A DNA stretch of 23,307 bases. It comes from a virus. The stretch covers positions 1-23,307 of IMG/VR virus record IMGVR_UViG_3300044655_000474; one strand, written 5' to 3'. The notes under the pieces are model-generated. The model saw nothing but the letters and a program-made list of their open reading frames with translations, did not search any database and was not told the origin of the DNA. Both the position numbers and the translations under genes were made by a program. Of the stretch, positions 5,902-20,715 are shown one piece after another. The stretch's first letter is position 1, and each line of letters opens with the position of its first letter.

Positions 5902-8466
5902 ATGTCAAATCTAGGACCACAGAAACAAAACGCTTCCTATGCTGGCTTGCTACAGGTTCCAGGTGGAATTACTTCAACTTTGCAGACTGTCACTGATGGT
6001 GATGGAAATGCAACTGGATTATCACTCAGTACAACGGCGGTTAGCGCTCTTGGACTTGTTAGCTCTACGTCGCAAAACATCTATGGCGGAACAGCAGGAT
6101 CTATTGTTTATCAGTCTGCTGTCAGTGCAACTAGCTTTGTAACGCCAGGCACTACAGGGCAATTGCTTTCAACCAACGGCGTACTAGCGCCTACGTTTGT
6201 CACTGTTGACGCTAACTATGTTGATGCTGTTGCAACGACTGGCGATGCAATGACGGGCAATTTAAGCATGTCAGGCAACATGGTAACGAACCTTGGCACT
6301 CCAACGGCTTCTACTGATGCTGCTAGCAAGGCTTACGTTGACTCTGTTGCTTCTGGATTGCAAATCAAAGCGCCAGTCACTTGCGCTACAACGACAAATC
6401 TAGCTTCTTTGTCTGGATTGCTGACGATTGACGGCATTACGTTGCTTGCTAATCAGCGCGTACTGGTTAAGGATCAGTTTGTCTCAGAGCTAAATGGCAT
6501 TTACAGCGCAGCAGTTGGCGTATGGTCAAGAACGTCTGATGCTAACACTTGGTCAGAGCTTGTTGGTGCTGCAGCTTTTGTCTCATCAGGTTCGCTGAAT
6601 GCGTCTACAACATGGGTATGTAATGTATCCGCTGGCGGCACTCTTGGAGCAACGCCAGTCACGTTTGTACAGTTTGGTTCATCAGGAACATATACGGCAG
6701 GATCTGGCCTTACGCTGGTTGGAAATCAGTTTTCAATTACAGCGCCAGTCAGCGTTTCTCTTGGTGGAACTGGTGTAACGTCTTTAACTGGCATTCCGTA
6801 TGGCAACAACACTAGCGCATTTACTGTAGCTACAGGATCGCAAATTGTTGGTGAAATCGGATCAACTGCTGTCAGTAGAGCAACTAATCTTGCTAACGGA
6901 GGTGCAAATAGACTTCCAGTGCAGCTAGCAACTGATACGACTGGTTTTCTGCCTACTGGGTCTGCTGGTCAAGTGCTAACGTCTAATGGCGCTGGCTCTT
7001 TGCCTTCGTTTACAACGCCATCTGCAATTATTTCAAATTACAGTAATGTTGCTTTCACTGGTGCTATTAGCAGACCTATTGCAAGCATCTTAGGTGATCG
7101 CGTTAGTGTTCTTGATTTTGGCGCTGATCCTACTGGAGCAACTAATTCAAACGCAGCATTTCAAGCAGCTTTTAACACTGGAAGGCTTGTTTACGTCCCG
7201 GCTGGAAATTATACGCTATCGTCAGGTGTGACTACTTCTGGCCCAGGCATGGTTGGCGATGGGCAAAGAGGCACTTACATTTATGTAGACAACGCATTTA
7301 CCAGTGGTGATGTCATCAGGTGGAACGGAACACCGACTGCTGGCGCTCATGGGCCTATGTTTGCAGATTTTACAATAGAGTGTTTTGCCGGCATCAGAAC
7401 CAGTGGCGCATTAATAAACATTACACCAGATCCAGATACACCATCTATTGATTACACTTATATTTCAAACATTCATTTAAGCAATGGATATATTGGATTA
7501 AAGCTAAAACATGCTTGGTATTTTAAAGTTATAGGATGTAATTTCACTGGCGCGTCATTTGCTTGTGTTCATGTATCAAGTCCTGGCGATTCTGATGGCG
7601 GAGATGGTGCAATTAGTTCCTGTCATTTTGGTAATGCTTTCTGCTGTATTTACCAAGAATCAAGTGGCGGTTTAAAAATAACAAACTCAAAATTGCTTGG
7701 CGGAACTTACGGATACTGGCTCAACGCCGTTTTGCCAAACAAAAACATGGCTGATTTGCTTATTTCTAATTGCTCTATTGAAGGTTTTTCTGTAGCTGGT
7801 ATTGCTCTAAATAGAGATGCTTCATCTGGTTCTTATTTTTTTGGTGGCATAGTTATTTCTGGCAATCAATTTGGCACAACAGTAAATCCTGTCGGATCTT
7901 GGTGCATCATTTGCAATGACTCTGATAATTTTATTACTGATTTAACTATCAGCGGAAACACTTTTCTTGCGTCTGAAGGAAATTATTGTGTAGGTCTTGA
8001 TTATCAAAACTATCTCTATGTAGGCGCAAATCAATTTCAAGCCGCTTCACCAACAGGCACTGTTGGTTTGTCAATTGGTGCAAATGTTCAGAATTGCGTT
8101 GCTGATGGCAATCAATATCAATCTTTTGCTGCTGGCAATGGTCTGCAATGCACTAGCACATCTGCAAAAGGATCTGATTTCTATCAAAGAGGATCAATCA
8201 CAATCGCACAGACTTCAACGCCTTATGGTGGTGGCTTCTACACAAGTGGATTTCAAACAATCACGTTCTCATCTGCTTTTCCTTCTGTGCCATTTATTAG
8301 CGTAACTGCTAACGCCGGCACTGGTACCTCATACACTGGTGGCGCACTTACGTTCATAACAAATAACATTACTACTACTGGATTTCAGATCGGAACTATT
8401 GGAATCAATCCGTCTGGTTCATCCATAGCCCTCTGGGAAGCAAAGTTAGATGTTGAAAGATCATAG
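5902..8466 (+). CDS. Tailspike-like protein with pectate-lyase-superfamily beta-helix
   Basis: This 854-residue protein has good spacing to an AGGA ribosome binding site. Residues 1-100 are a Ser/Thr-rich stalk. Residues about 105-240 carry a module common in tail fibres (AMTGNLSMSGNMVTNLGTP, DAASKAYVDSVASGLQIKAP, LLANQRVLVKDQ). At residue 401 begins VSVLDFGADPTGATNSNAAF, the hallmark start of the pectate-lyase-3 superfamily, followed by LVYVPAGNYTLSSGV and a right-handed beta-helix reaching about residue 740. The last 100 residues form a separate beta-rich tip (FQTITFSSAFPSVPFISVTA). P22 tailspike uses such a helix to cut host polysaccharide, so glycan binding or cleavage is likely here, but catalytic residues cannot be assigned by eye. 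The helix-coding DNA (about 7340-8100) looks more AT-rich than its flanks, which suggests a swapped module. Confidence 0.85.
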   Translation: MSNLGPQKQNASYAGLLQVPGGITSTLQTVTDGDGNATGLSLSTTAVSALGLVSSTSQNIYGGTAGSIVYQSAVSATSFVTPGTTGQLLSTNGVLAPTFVTVDANYVDAVATTGDAMTGNLSMSGNMVTNLGTPTASTDAASKAYVDSVASGLQIKAPVTCATTTNLASLSGLLTIDGITLLANQRVLVKDQFVSELNGIYSAAVGVWSRTSDANTWSELVGAAAFVSSGSLNASTTWVCNVSAGGTLGATPVTFVQFGSSGTYTAGSGLTLVGNQFSITAPVSVSLGGTGVTSLTGIPYGNNTSAFTVATGSQIVGEIGSTAVSRATNLANGGANRLPVQLATDTTGFLPTGSAGQVLTSNGAGSLPSFTTPSAIISNYSNVAFTGAISRPIASILGDRVSVLDFGADPTGATNSNAAFQAAFNTGRLVYVPAGNYTLSSGVTTSGPGMVGDGQRGTYIYVDNAFTSGDVIRWNGTPTAGAHGPMFADFTIECFAGIRTSGALINITPDPDTPSIDYTYISNIHLSNGYIGLKLKHAWYFKVIGCNFTGASFACVHVSSPGDSDGGDGAISSCHFGNAFCCIYQESSGGLKITNSKLLGGTYGYWLNAVLPNKNMADLLISNCSIEGFSVAGIALNRDASSGSYFFGGIVISGNQFGTTVNPVGSWCIICNDSDNFITDLTISGNTFLASEGNYCVGLDYQNYLYVGANQFQAASPTGTVGLSIGANVQNCVADGNQYQSFAAGNGLQCTSTSAKGSDFYQRGSITIAQTSTPYGGGFYTSGFQTITFSSAFPSVPFISVTANAGTGTSYTGGALTFITNNITTTGFQIGTIGINPSGSSIALWEAKLDVERS

Positions 8467-9597: not shown

Positions 9598-9605
9598 TAT
9601 TGTAA

Positions 9606-10133
9606 TCAAATATGAGTATACGTTTTACGTTTTACAATCATTTGAATTGGAACCCAAGATGTGCGATTTCCAAAATGTGCGGTAATTTTGTGATAGCTCA
9701 TGCCAGATGCGTGAAGTTTGCGAATTTCAAGAACTTCCTCATCAGTGTAATTTGCTCTCCAATGAACGCCATGTCCTCTTGGTCTAGATTTAATGTTTCC
9801 CAATATTTCGTATGAATGTGTGGCTTGCTCGCTTCTTGTCATCCATTCAAGATTTTCTGGCTTATTGTTTAATTTATTTCCGTCCTTATGATTGACTGTA
9901 TGAAGTTCTGTTGGAGGAAAGCCAACAAAAGTTAAGCACACCAAAATATGAACTTTTCTTGTAACTCTATTTCTTTGTGCTCCTTTTTTTGTTAATCCAA
10001 CTTGATAATATCCATTTTTGTTTGGATGATTTTTGCAAACTGACATGATGCGTTTTGTTTCAAAATTCCTTATGTTGCCTTCAGAAGAAGCCTCATAATT
10101 CTCATAACCGGGTATAATTTTCCAGACTTCCAT
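9606..10133 (-). CDS. Free-standing HNH homing endonuclease, NUMOD4 type
   Basis: This 175-residue protein is encoded against the direction of its neighbours. Residues 2-23 (EVWKIIPGYENYEASSEGNI) are a NUMOD4 DNA-binding motif. Residues about 61-105 form the HNH nuclease core (VHILVCLTF, then HTVNHKDGNKLNNKPENLEW). Residues about 132-160 (YTDEEVLEIRKLHASGMSYH) look like a resolvase-type helix-turn-helix that would read the target. It fills the space between the gp4-like and gp10-like genes, which adjoin in P22, and interrupts neither. The reading frame is intact. It probably promotes spread of its own DNA into related phages. No clear ribosome binding site precedes the ATG, so expression may be weak. 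Confidence 0.92.
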   Translation of the reverse strand: MEVWKIIPGYENYEASSEGNIRNFETKRIMSVCKNHPNKNGYYQVGLTKKGAQRNRVTRKVHILVCLTFVGFPPTELHTVNHKDGNKLNNKPENLEWMTRSEQATHSYEILGNIKSRPRGHGVHWRANYTDEEVLEIRKLHASGMSYHKITAHFGNRTSWVPIQMIVKRKTYTHI

Positions 10134-10179
10134 TGCGGTGTACCGTGTATGTTTAACAAGATTGTAGGATACACCAATG
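10131..10179 (+). promoter_or_regulatory. Inverted repeat covering the start codons of gp10 and the HNH gene
   Basis: CATTGcGGTGTA (10131-10142) can pair with TACACCAATG (10170-10179), giving 5 plus 6 base pairs around a one-base bulge and a 27-base loop. The 3' arm contains the gp10 start codon; the opposite arm contains the HNH start codon on the other strand. In a + strand transcript from upstream the gp10 ATG would be paired while its AGGA (10166-10169) stays in the loop. A regulatory effect is inferred only. Confidence 0.35.
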
Positions 10180-10189
10180 CCTGAAACAA
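10161..10189 (-). promoter_or_regulatory. Possible promoter for the minus-strand HNH gene
   Basis: On the minus strand TTGTTT (10184-10189) is separated by 17 bases from TACAAT (10161-10166), a 5/6 match to the -10 consensus. It would start transcription roughly 20 bases before the HNH ATG. The -35 match is weak (3/6), so this is only a candidate. Confidence 0.3.
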
Positions 10190-12081
10190 TGCAATTACCG
10201 ATCCTAGGCCCTGGTGTTGCAGGACGTTCTCGCGCCGTTACTGCTCAAAAACGCCAGAATCTTTTTCTTGAAATTAAGCCAGAGAAAGATAAGTCTAATC
10301 TTGTTGCATACGGCACTCCTGGGCTAAAGCCGTTTATCTCTCTTGGCGCTAATCCTATCCGCGGTCTCTGGTGGTTCCAGTCCCAGAATCGTTTGTTTGC
10401 GGTTGCATACGATCAGCTTGTTGAAATCTTTCCAGACGGCACACAGAAAAATCGTGGTACGTTGCTAACGACTGTTGGCACTGTGTCCATGACTGACAAT
10501 GGTCAGCAATTGATGATTGTTGATGGATTGTCTGGCTACATTTATCAGCCGACTACTGGTAATCTTCCGTACAGCAAAGTTAGCGCAACGATCACGATCA
10601 CTGAGACTTTGACTACGCGCCAGACGGGTCAGATTATTCATGTCATTGGCGATAACTACAATGTCTTTGAGAATGACTACACGGTGCAATTGATTACGGT
10701 TAATGCAACCGCTCTTGTCACTAACACTGAATATGTCATTCAATCTGTTGGCACGTCAGACTTTACGCTAGTCGGTGCTGCGGCTAATGAAGTTGGCGTT
10801 GTCTTTACTGCAACTGGCACTACGCCTGGTACTGGCGTATGTACGAACGCTAATCAGTTTACGATCAGTTCTGGCACTGTCTCTACTGCCACTGGTACGC
10901 TTCAGATCGTTAATAACTTTAGAACGATTGCATCTGCATACACTGGAACAAACTTTCCAAAGGCTACGACTGTCACGTTCCTAGATAGTTATTTCATTGT
11001 CAATGTTGTCGGCACTAAGCAGTTCTGGCTATCAGGTTCGTATGACGGCTTCTACTGGGATCCGCTACAGTTTGCCAGCAAAGAAGCGTACACGGATAAC
11101 TTGCAAGCAGTAACCGTAGACAATGGCGCTTTAGTCCTACTGGGCGCAGCATCTCAGGAATACTGGCAAAACACTGGCGCATATCCTTTCCCTTTGCAGA
11201 GAATTGCTGGCTCTCCGACTGACGTAGGTCTGGTTGCTATTCGATCTTATGCTCGATGTGCAGGACAACTGTTTTATCTTGGACGTTCTAGGCGCGGTGG
11301 CATCTCAGTCATTCGTGTTGAAAACTATCGTTGTATTCCGGTATCCACTCCAGACCTAGACTTTTTGTTTAATAGCTATCAGTCTCCAGAGGATGCAATT
11401 GCTTACTCTTATCGTCTTGCTGGGCATGATTTCTACGTCATATCTTTTCAGGCTGAAGCAAAGACTTGGATGTATGACGCAACGTCTGATGTCTGGTCTG
11501 ATCTGACATCTGGCGCAGACACTAGGCATTACGGATTGCGTTCTACACAGTTTCAGAATGAAATTTATGTGTCTGACTATCGCAATGGCAATCTGTATAC
11601 CTATGATGTCAACACTTACACGGATAACGGCGATTACATTGCTAGAGAGCTAATTACTCCTCATTTCTTTGCTACAACGTCTTTTGACAAACTTCACATA
11701 TACAGGCTTAGGCTTGATATGGAACAAGGAACAGGCAATGCTACTAGGCTGGTTCCAACTCAAGTTGAAGTATTTTTAGCAACAGAAAATGATTCAATTT
11801 TAGACACAGAAATTGGACAAGAAATAATTTCTGGATACAGCACAGAAAATGTGCCAATGCTCTATAACCCGCAAGTTATGCTTCAAGTCTCAAGAGATGG
11901 CGGATTTACTTACGCCAACGAAATGTGGACAACTTTTGGACAAGCTGGAGAATATCTAAGAAGGGCGGAATGGCGTAGATTGGGTGTTAGTCGTAACTAT
12001 GTGTTTAAGTTCAGAATCACAGATCCTGTGAAAGTAGTTATGATGTCAGCAGCGGCATACGCAGCAAAAGCCGCAAAATGA
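10177..12081 (+). CDS. Packaged-DNA stabilisation / head-tail protein, P22 gp10-like
   Basis: This 634-residue protein resembles P22 gp10, the hub that binds gp4 and plugs the portal channel. The N-terminus MPETMQLPILGPGVAGRSR with QKRQNLFLEIKPE and GLKPFISLGANPIRGLWWF is typical, as are DSYFIVNVVGTKQFWLSGSY (270-289), QEYWQNTGAYPFPLQRI and the Tyr-rich beta-propeller-like middle. P22 gp10 has 472 residues. Part of the excess is an inserted module at residues about 180-222 (NTEYVIQSVGTSDFTLVGAA, then VGVVFTATGTTPGTG) that I recognise as a portable unit of phage tail proteins. The ribosome binding site is AGGA with 7-base spacing. The last 27 bases are imperfectly repeated at the end of the downstream HNH gene. 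The 3' part (from about 11640) is more AT-rich than the rest. Confidence 0.9.
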   Translation: MPETMQLPILGPGVAGRSRAVTAQKRQNLFLEIKPEKDKSNLVAYGTPGLKPFISLGANPIRGLWWFQSQNRLFAVAYDQLVEIFPDGTQKNRGTLLTTVGTVSMTDNGQQLMIVDGLSGYIYQPTTGNLPYSKVSATITITETLTTRQTGQIIHVIGDNYNVFENDYTVQLITVNATALVTNTEYVIQSVGTSDFTLVGAAANEVGVVFTATGTTPGTGVCTNANQFTISSGTVSTATGTLQIVNNFRTIASAYTGTNFPKATTVTFLDSYFIVNVVGTKQFWLSGSYDGFYWDPLQFASKEAYTDNLQAVTVDNGALVLLGAASQEYWQNTGAYPFPLQRIAGSPTDVGLVAIRSYARCAGQLFYLGRSRRGGISVIRVENYRCIPVSTPDLDFLFNSYQSPEDAIAYSYRLAGHDFYVISFQAEAKTWMYDATSDVWSDLTSGADTRHYGLRSTQFQNEIYVSDYRNGNLYTYDVNTYTDNGDYIARELITPHFFATTSFDKLHIYRLRLDMEQGTGNATRLVPTQVEVFLATENDSILDTEIGQEIISGYSTENVPMLYNPQVMLQVSRDGGFTYANEMWTTFGQAGEYLRRAEWRRLGVSRNYVFKFRITDPVKVVMMSAAAYAAKAAK

Positions 12082-12093
12082 TATAGTTTACAA

Positions 12094-12143
12094 GCGTGGC
12101 GGGGACGGCCATCCCGATTGTTACCATCAGCAATCAGCCACGC
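12094..12143 (+). ncRNA. Three-way-junction RNA structure candidate upstream of HNH gene
   Basis: A 50-base segment folds completely: an outer 7-bp stem GCGTGGC/GCCACGC (12094-12100 with 12137-12143), a 4-bp hairpin GGGA/TCCC (12102-12105 with 12112-12115, loop CGGCCA), and a 7-bp hairpin GATTGTT/AGCAATC with one G-U pair (12116-12122 with 12129-12135, loop ACCATC). Only positions 12101 and 12136 are unpaired at the junction. It lies between the gp10 stop and the HNH ribosome binding site. There is no U-run, so it is not a standard terminator, and no T-arm, so it is not a tRNA. I know no family for it. It could act in mRNA processing, translation control or as part of the mobile cassette. Confidence 0.55.
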
Positions 12144-12175
12144 ATTTTATGATGGGAATCAGATGGAGATTCAAC

Positions 12176-12661
12176 ATGTTGACACAAAATTATTTAAAAG
12201 AATTGTTGTTTTGGGACGGTGAAAAATTTATTTGGAACAAACAGCCAAGACAAAGAAGCATGAGCAACATTGCTGGATGTGTTGGCAAGAAGGGTTACAA
12301 GCAAATTTGCATACATCAAAAATTATATAGTGAGCATCGTCTTGTTTGGCTTTACCACTATGGATCTTTTCCAGATGGAACAATAGATCATATTGATAGA
12401 AATCCATTAAACAATTCAATAAAAAATTTAAGAGTTGTAAAGCATGCTGAGAATTGTCAAAACACAAAAAAGCATGTTGACAACACTTCTGGATACAAAG
12501 GCGTTTATTGGAATAAACAATGCAATAAATGGATGGCAAAAATTGTGGTTAATGGCAAGCAACATCATTTAGGTCTTTTTTCTACGCCAGAAGAAGCAAG
12601 CGTTGCTTACATTGAAGGTCAAAAAAAATATCATCCATACGCTACTGAGGCTGCAAAATGA
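12176..12661 (+). CDS. HNH endonuclease with C-terminal AP2-like DNA-binding domain
   Basis: The ATG at 12176 has GGAG at 12165-12168 with 7-base spacing; upstream in-frame ATGs at 12149 and 12152 have no such site, so I take a 161-residue product. The HNH core spans about residues 43-90: EHRLVWLYHYGSFPDG (H54), then TIDHIDRNPLNNSIKNLRV (D71, H72, N79, N84). Residues about 103-145 (TSGYKGVYWNKQCNKWMAKI, then HHLGLFSTPEEASVAY) form an AP2-like DNA-binding fold, a frequent partner of phage HNH enzymes. It is a free-standing homing-type nuclease. It overlaps the next gene through ATGA. The protein resembles the HNH at 19895-20377 in architecture and motif spacing but is clearly divergent, so the two were probably acquired separately. 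Confidence 0.92.
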   Translation: MLTQNYLKELLFWDGEKFIWNKQPRQRSMSNIAGCVGKKGYKQICIHQKLYSEHRLVWLYHYGSFPDGTIDHIDRNPLNNSIKNLRVVKHAENCQNTKKHVDNTSGYKGVYWNKQCNKWMAKIVVNGKQHHLGLFSTPEEASVAYIEGQKKYHPYATEAAK

Positions 12662-19710: not shown

Positions 19711-19898
19711 AGTTTGTCTCCTCTACAGCGTGACTGTAGGTCTATTGAGTCCGGGTCTGATGGGTTGATTCGGTTCTTCTCCGCAAGGCGATTTTCCACA
19801 GCGCAAATAGTTGAATACATATCGTAAGCAGACGTTAAGATTTCTGTGACTTCCTCCTCACTCAACCTCACAAATTGCAGTTCTTTTTCTCTGCTCAT
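19707..19898 (-). CDS. Hypothetical 63-residue acidic protein
   Basis: The product MSREKELQFVRLSEEEVTEI continues with a helical middle (LTSAYDMYSTICAVENRLAE) and a polar C-terminus. I do not recognise a family. It overlaps its neighbours on both sides by ATGA-type junctions and has a purine-rich AGGGGG leader, which supports translation as part of the operon. Confidence 0.7.
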   Translation of the reverse strand: MSREKELQFVRLSEEEVTEILTSAYDMYSTICAVENRLAEKNRINPSDPDSIDLQSRCRGDKL

Positions 19899-20377
19899 CT
19901 CATCCCCCTGCCAATCTCAGCTTTAAATGCTTCAACGGCTTTTAATGCGTCGTCTATGTTTTTGTATGACCCAAGATAGTTTTGCTTTCCGTTCCTTCTG
20001 CAAGCGGCTTGATATGATTTATCGCGCTCTCTCCATGTGACGTTCGGCACACCTGTTTTGCTATCCTTTCTTGCGCCTTTGTTGATGTTGTTTAACTGCA
20101 CCGTGGCATCTCTCAGATTCACAATGCGGTTGTCGTCCTTGATTCTGTTAATGTGGTCGATAACGCCAGTAGGCCAAACTCCATAGACATACAACCAAAT
20201 AATCCTGTGTAACTTGTAAGAAGCCTTTTCGATCTTGACATGCAAGTATCCTTCGCTGTTTTTCCAACCAGCTAACGCGCCTTCTTTTGCATTTCTTGCT
20301 ACAGACACCTTCCTTCGTACTTCACCAGTATTTGGGTCGTATGAAAAAAGCTCTTTTACTTTCTCTTGTGTAAGCAT
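19895..20377 (-). CDS. HNH endonuclease with AP2-like domain, minus strand
   Basis: From the ATG at 20377 the product has 160 residues (a GTG one codon upstream is possible). The HNH core includes SYKLHRIIWLYVYGVWPTG (H57) and VIDHINRIKDDNRIVNL (D74, H75, N83, N88). Residues about 105-150 (KTGVPNVTWRERDKSYQAAC, then NYLGSYKNIDDALKAVEAF) form an AP2-like DNA-binding fold. It resembles the plus-strand HNH at 12176-12661 in architecture. AGGAG precedes the start, and TGATG and ATGA overlaps join it to both neighbours, so the insertion has been fitted into the operon without breaking coupling. Confidence 0.92.
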   Translation of the reverse strand: MLTQEKVKELFSYDPNTGEVRRKVSVARNAKEGALAGWKNSEGYLHVKIEKASYKLHRIIWLYVYGVWPTGVIDHINRIKDDNRIVNLRDATVQLNNINKGARKDSKTGVPNVTWRERDKSYQAACRRNGKQNYLGSYKNIDDALKAVEAFKAEIGRGMR

Positions 20378-20715
20378 CACGGCATCTCCTGACCTATAGC
20401 TGCGGCGGCTCTTACGATGGCTCTACGGGTTGCGGCGTAGGGGTCGTTGTTGTGGGTATTAAAGTATTCATATACATCCATCGTCCCATCTTGACCGCAA
20501 ACCACACAAACACCACCAGATATCTGCACTAAGTCAATCTTCAACTTCACCGCAAGGCGCAGAGCCTGAGCATCATCCTTTAATGGATTCCACTGTTCTT
20601 TTAGTCTCCCATCTTCAACAATGAAAAAAGACTTGCTAGGCCCAAAATGGCCTAACTCAATCTCAATCCCCGCCGCTTTCGCCGCCAAGGTCAATAGTTC
20701 TTTGTCGTTATTCAT
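20377..20715 (-). CDS. Hypothetical protein of a phage early family (112 residues)
   Basis: The product has a central QWNPLKDDAQALRLAVKLKI motif followed by a VCVVCGQD segment and AATRRAIVRAAAAIG. The WxPLxDDxxALRLAVxL pattern is common in small phage proteins of unknown role, near phage-encoded DNA metabolism or regulatory genes. The C-x2-C could bind metal, but a second pair is missing. The start has GGAG with 7-base spacing and overlaps the upstream gene by 8 bases. Confidence 0.78.
   Translation of the reverse strand: MNNDKELLTLAAKAAGIEIELGHFGPSKSFFIVEDGRLKEQWNPLKDDAQALRLAVKLKIDLVQISGGVCVVCGQDGTMDVYEYFNTHNNDPYAATRRAIVRAAAAIGQEMP

Follow-up and report, generated by a model that had tools for sequence, protein, structure and literature searches.

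A candidate 'tail-swap' homing-endonuclease cassette with a structured leader RNA at the end of a phage gp10 gene

The gp10 locus and its HNH genes

The window analyzed here is a 23,307-nucleotide stretch of viral DNA (IMG/VR record IMGVR_UViG_3300044655_000474, positions 1 to 23,307). At the locus of interest, a gp10-like gene is followed by an HNH homing endonuclease gene and then by a gene for 76 residues, with the following features:

10177-12081, plus strand: gene for a gp10-like tail / packaged-DNA stabilization protein, the host of the insertion, with 29 IMG/VR relatives
11855-12081, plus strand: foreign 3' part of gp10, ending AYAAKAAK-stop, 98-100% identical to contig L003, while the gp10 body groups elsewhere
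12056-12062, plus strand: left CATACGC repeat, which when joined to the right repeat gives the ancestral gp10 end
12176-12661, plus strand: HNH homing endonuclease gene, 161 aa, HNH_3 plus weak AP2
12636-12661, plus strand: resident ancestral gp10 tail, now the HNH C-terminus (PYATEAAK) and stop, identical or near-identical to L002, L004, L010 and L029
12658-12888, plus strand: 76-residue gene, its ATGA overlap kept as in uninserted relatives

The HNH_3 domain of the HNH gene product scores 59 bits (cut-off 24.8), and an AP2 domain of the HNH-AP2 subgroup is matched weakly, at 32.8 bits against a cut-off of 33.3. The true start of the gene is likely 12176 rather than 12149, based on an ATG that is aligned in the RNA model described below and on homologs that start at the same residue. 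At the C-terminus, HNH homologs read ...KYHGEFA, while the window protein has KYH followed by PYATEAAK. Used as a nucleotide query against known phages, the gp10-HNH region yielded no more than weak HNH matches. Relatives of gp10 in annotated phages bear the names stabilization protein or head closure Hc3.

The window has other HNH genes. A second HNH insertion (9598-10176) carries a NUMOD4 plus HNH_3 gene (9606-10133, minus strand) and lies precisely at the junction between gp10 and the tail gene that precedes it. It is missing in L002-L007 and L029 and present in L013 (83% amino acid identity), and given that L009 and L012 have a different HNH at this site, the site is one of recurrent homing. 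A third HNH_3 gene is found at 19895-20380, also on the minus strand.

Origin of the two gene ends

The last 27 bases of gp10 (12055-12081) are identical to the last 27 of the HNH gene (12635-12661) at 20 positions, in register, with two fully identical blocks, CATACGC (12056-12062 and 12636-12642) and GCAAAATGA. Other pairs of gene ends in the window match at 14 of 27 positions or fewer. We also mispaired the ends of upstream genes and HNH genes from 75 phage HNH loci, obtained by profile search, and in 3000 trials the mean was 8.4 matches and the maximum 16; the match between gp10 and the HNH gene is therefore far beyond chance, and the similarity reported in the earlier sequence-only reading is real. 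Both genes do terminate in AAK-stop, as would be expected of a chance likeness between Ala/Lys-rich C-terminal codons, but the probability of that explanation is practically nil and we reject it, as none of the 3000 mispaired ends reaches 17 and descent, seen via the relatives described next, accounts for the match.

Among the 29 IMG/VR relatives of gp10, the insert is absent from every one with a readable junction except L003. The four closest in arrangement (L002, L004, L010 and L029) are uninserted, so that inserted and empty alleles both exist at this site. In these four, gp10 ends in ...ACTGAGGC[TA]GCAAARTGA or, in longer form, ...GCATACGCAACTGAGGC[TA]GCAAARTGA (AYATEAAK-stop), with minor third-position differences, and overlaps the 76-residue gene through ATGA or GTGA. 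The sequence-only reading had predicted that in relatives free of the HNH gene gp10 would meet the 76-residue gene directly, and it does; therefore its proposal that the insertion leaves both flanking genes and their translational coupling undamaged is supported.

The same relatives reverse the direction of copying that had been proposed, in which the 3' end of the HNH gene copies the end of gp10. The HNH gene end, CATACGCTACTGAGGCTGCAAAATGA, is the ancestral gp10 end: 25 of its last 26 bases are identical to the gp10 end of L004, a better match to the uninserted end than the present gp10 end gives. When the window flanks are joined at CATACGC, they give DPVKVVMMSAAAYATEAAK and a stop codon (AAAYATEAAK-stop) that overlaps the 76-residue gene exactly as it does in the empty relatives. 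Judged by these alignments, of the two copies the one at 12636-12661 is the resident tail of gp10 and the one upstream (AAKAAK-stop) is the newcomer. As for the stop-start overlap, which had been taken as rebuilt, it is still the original ATGA and there was no rebuilding. It could still be argued that the 3' end of the cassette arose, by evolution or by copying, to imitate the gp10 end and rebuild the coupling, since 20 of 27 bases are identical in register. We consider this highly improbable: the HNH end is closer to the uninserted gp10 end than the present gp10 end is, and it continues directly into the resident 76-residue gene, so that the uninserted relatives refute this explanation as to direction. 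The cassette edges given earlier (12082-12661) also need to be corrected. Between the two CATACGC repeats a net 580 bases have been inserted, and the imported stretch extends leftward inside gp10 to about 11855 or further.

That joining the flanks yields an intact gp10 is also what one would expect if the insert were a self-splicing intron or an intein, with gp10 restored through splicing. This is extremely improbable. Searched against Rfam, the insert matched neither an intron family nor any other known RNA; the gp10 end upstream of the insert is already complete and of conserved length; the HNH frame extends to the 3' edge; and an intein is excluded by the in-frame stop at 12079-12081.

The AYAAKAAK-stop ending was found in none of the empty gp10 relatives, and no donor of it was found among the gp10 relatives. 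It is present in L003, whose contig continues for 13 bases into the cassette and then stops, so L003 attests these 13 bases of the cassette only. From about 11855 to 12094, the window and L003 are 98-100% identical, versus 65-80% before that. A tree of the gp10 body groups the window with L002/L010 and L003 with L005 (support 1.0), whereas a tree of the gp10 tail (last 227 bases) groups the window with L003 (support 0.999). Given that a gp10 end of about 230 bases and the cassette start are near-identical across divergent backbones, the foreign gp10 end travelled with the cassette. The co-converted flank is present in two recipients, the window and L003, and the same foreign gp10 end and cassette start on two backbones are the signature of homing with co-conversion. 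As a separate observation, the L003 contig ends at position 5915, 13 bases into the cassette, which is expected if several backbones of one sample carry the cassette.

Two other explanations of the altered gp10 end have to be weighed against this. A target duplication of about 26 bases at insertion, with the upstream copy then mutated in place, would fit the 7-base direct repeat that marks the edges, but we regard it as quite improbable, as the upstream tail is changed at 5 of 9 bases within one block and belongs to the tract of about 230 bases that is common to L003 and foreign to both backbones. It is also unlikely that ordinary recombination, independent of homing, delivered the foreign 3' segment of gp10 at some time before the insertion or after it. 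Although gp10 is mosaic in general and the tract boundary is not the same in both recipients, the shared tract runs 13 bases into the cassette in L003 and stops at the insertion, and it is absent from all uninserted relatives.

Our preferred reading, to which we assign a probability of roughly 80%, is that the window element is a mobile homing-endonuclease cassette of a 'tail-swap' type with a structured leader RNA. The compared sequences show the order foreign gp10 end, cassette, resident end, where the resident end is read in frame as the C-terminus of the nuclease and the old overlap is kept. The cassette is located a few codons short of the gp10 end. Under this reading, the HNH enzyme would cut or nick the conserved gp10 end of uninserted phages, and repair from a cassette-bearing phage would extend to the left through homologous sequence, with co-conversion of about 230 bases of gp10 or more, while joining on the right would take place at CATACGC. 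The foreign end would complete gp10, which would then cease to be a target, and the new allele would be protected by its different tail.

A leader RNA in front of homing genes

The gp10 stop is separated by 94 bases from the probable start codon of the HNH gene (ATG at 12176, preceded by GATGGAG), and the following features were found within and around this stretch:

12079-12087, plus strand: extended -10-like sequence TGATATAGT, overlapping the gp10 stop; putative promoter, read from sequence
12091-12172, plus strand: leader RNA, unannotated, with a three-way junction and a P3 loop that has two pairing partners
12091-12192, plus strand: match to covariance model R1, full length, from the RNA start into the HNH start
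12094-12143, plus strand: three-way junction, with P1 (12094-12100/12137-12143), P2 (12102-12115, loop CGGCCA) and P3 (12116-12135, loop ACCAUC)
12150-12155, plus strand: X1 (UGAUGG), decoy strand, a potential partner of the P3 loop with its flank (CCAUCA)
12156-12172, plus strand: P4 hairpin GAAUC-AGAUGGA-GAUUC, whose loop holds X2 within the Shine-Dalgarno sequence GATGGAG (12162-12168)

Covariation and model search show that this is a structured leader RNA common to the homing genes of several nuclease families. A comparison of HNH-gene leaders led to L077 and from there to the core TAGGACGGCCATCCGAA, which is present in 42 viral contigs. The block used for the first search, GGACGGCCATCC, was drawn from the window and L077; it was used to find the family and so is not independent evidence. 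A scan of genome contigs with TATARTT...GGACGGCCATCC gave no convincing members; it was in viral contigs that this pattern revealed the RNA family. In 34 aligned members, covariation is seen in P1, in P3 and in the helix between the P3 loop and X1, with double changes in 116 cells versus 32 expected; for paired cells, double changes and covariation score alike, 0 of 500 shuffles matched the observed value. The P3-loop/X2 alternative near the ribosome site has weaker support, with this helix paired in 64% versus 80%. Model R1, for which the window was left out of the training set, matches the window with a score of 27.4 bits (E 2.8e-7 in 2 kb), and the HNH ATG falls where the model has its start codon. 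The window RNA does not have the junction bases UA before P2 and GAA after it, but has CG before and CGAUUG after; the conservation of UA and GAA in the other members is overstated, because the core served as their search pattern.

In the window, the loop CCAUCA has two predicted alternative partners, UGAUGG (X1) and GAUGG (X2, in the P4 loop). This arrangement suggests that the leader may switch translation: with the P3 loop paired to the decoy X1, the ribosome site would be free, and with the loop paired to X2 in the ribosome site, the HNH gene would be off. Through its conserved junction, the leader may respond to a ligand, to a protein or to how far the infection has progressed. TATAAT-like boxes are found at the same place as TGATATAGT in several related leaders. 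For TGATATAGT itself, no -35 sequence was found, and a consensus promoter scan made no call there.

At least 24 of 40 phage contigs encode an endonuclease domain downstream of the RNA; for the 40 distinct downstream genes, 21 are above Pfam nuclease cut-offs and 24 are detected at E 0.01. The nuclease types are HNH_3, HNH/HNH_5, GIY-YIG (including T5orf172) and PD-(D/E)XK such as DUF559 and MTES_1575. Among annotated phages, Pseudomonas phage PfAn1, Klebsiella phage 6991 and Salmonella phage Seszw_1 have the RNA immediately upstream of HNH genes. A divergent relative of the leader, missed by the covariance model, was noted in L061 (2386-2503), where the P3 loop CCTTAAT is complementary to ATTAAGG at the ribosome site of an HNH gene. 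In L218, L198 and L212 the leader-type RNA precedes phage genes without nuclease domains, so it may regulate other genes too.

The L218 leader is of the type of int-alpA (RF02996 in Rfam), which shares with our family P1, P2, a GAAAAG-like joining stretch, P3 and a 3' stretch complementary to the P3 loop. With the int-alpA model, L218 passes at 63.2 bits and L159 just misses at 34.4 (gathering threshold 35.8), while the window has no match up to E 10 and most homing-gene leaders have none either. In contrast to int-alpA, which is filed as an sRNA gene, the RNA here runs into a ribosome-site hairpin before a homing gene. Masking of the ribosome site by RNA structure is known for some free-standing phage homing genes (PMC2988022, PMC8861465), and in T4-type homing genes it is done by simple hairpins (PMC2988022); unlike these simple stems, the window leader combines a junction with a decoy. 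In the literature that we searched, we found no description of a decoy-type leader shared across nuclease families.

Generality of tail swapping and comparison with known systems

It had also been proposed to test whether cassettes of this kind elsewhere end in a copy of their own upstream gene's end. As a rule for HNH genes at large this is rejected, with the window the only clear case among the 75 loci, and yet the pattern recurs in L208 together with the RNA leader. Among 32 contigs with the leader RNA, L208 stands out with 19 of 27 bases: its dnaB helicase gene ends in RVRDIKQEYSYQG and a stop, and the following homing-type gene ends in RVEDIKQEYNFQN and a stop, with several synonymous differences. 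The protein-level score of these ends is 50, versus a maximum of 37 in 6000 mispairs. On this evidence L208 appears to be a second tail swap in phage contigs, again with an RNA leader. The L208 gene, called a homing gene from its looks and its leader, has no Pfam match and is not an HNH_3 protein. The best relatives of the L208 dnaB are near 33% identical, with no close uninserted one among them to tell which tail is native.

In L103 (1817-3510), an annealing-protein gene ending KKAKEL-stop is followed by an HNH gene ending KKAKEM-stop and then by a second HNH gene. These ends match at 15 of 27 positions (null maximum 16), and the relative L231 has a different ending; L103 may be a third tail capture, one without the leader RNA. 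A 15-base match in L075 was rejected, as it involves two unrelated gene starts (MSKL). A search with the pattern GRTATARTTTACAAGYG gave mostly chance matches. L010 and L002 form a natural inserted/empty pair in which the cassette is bigger and tail capture is absent. In L034, L037 and L031, HNH genes overlap the beginning of the gene after them by 23-29 bases, and resident DNA of that downstream gene thus encodes the nuclease end.

The closest parallel is with the mobile-ORF gene hybrids of fungal mitochondria, known for Allomyces atp6 and for Glomus atp6, atp9, cox2 and nad3, in which the order is inserted C-terminal part, endonuclease gene, native C-terminal part, and where the foreign fused part has 64-81% identity versus 91-98% for the native downstream part (PMC3630166). 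As in these hybrids, the endonuclease gene in the window is near the 3' end of its host gene, with a foreign C-terminal part fused and the native part left downstream. The fungal enzymes are LAGLIDADG or GIY-YIG and mitochondrial, whereas ours is an HNH_3 enzyme of a virus, with a leader RNA in between, a native tail that is short (26 bases) and forms the in-frame end of the nuclease, and a translational overlap that is kept; the window element thus works alike but is not a member of that group.

Free-standing HNH homing endonucleases of phages, such as the T4 mob genes, Aeh1 mobE and that of Hafnia phage Ca (PMC2988022, PMC8861465), resemble the window gene in being small genes amid essential genes, with co-conversion of flanks and overlaps with neighbours. 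We found no description of tail replacement in these systems (PMC2988022, PMC8861465), nor any phage tail-swap case in the literature searched. The out-of-frame HNH insertion of the ShiLan type is similar in that an HNH lies within a phage gene, without splicing, and the host gene stays readable; it differs in that it sits inside the host reading frame, whereas here a newly supplied end terminates the host gene (PMC11855218).

The tail swap would be the phage counterpart of the fungal mitochondrial scheme, and it would mean that a selfish gene can invade an essential phage gene at the end of its coding sequence with hardly any cost. The invader would provide a new, probably cut-resistant gp10 ending, and would reuse the old ending, with its stop codon and coupling signal, for itself. 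The leader appears to be an overlooked RNA switch before many phage homing genes. We put at even odds the broader proposal that the P3-loop riboregulator is a shared, horizontally exchanged module of unrelated phage homing-endonuclease families which, together with tail swapping, makes up a common life style of invading gene ends without harm to the host gene.
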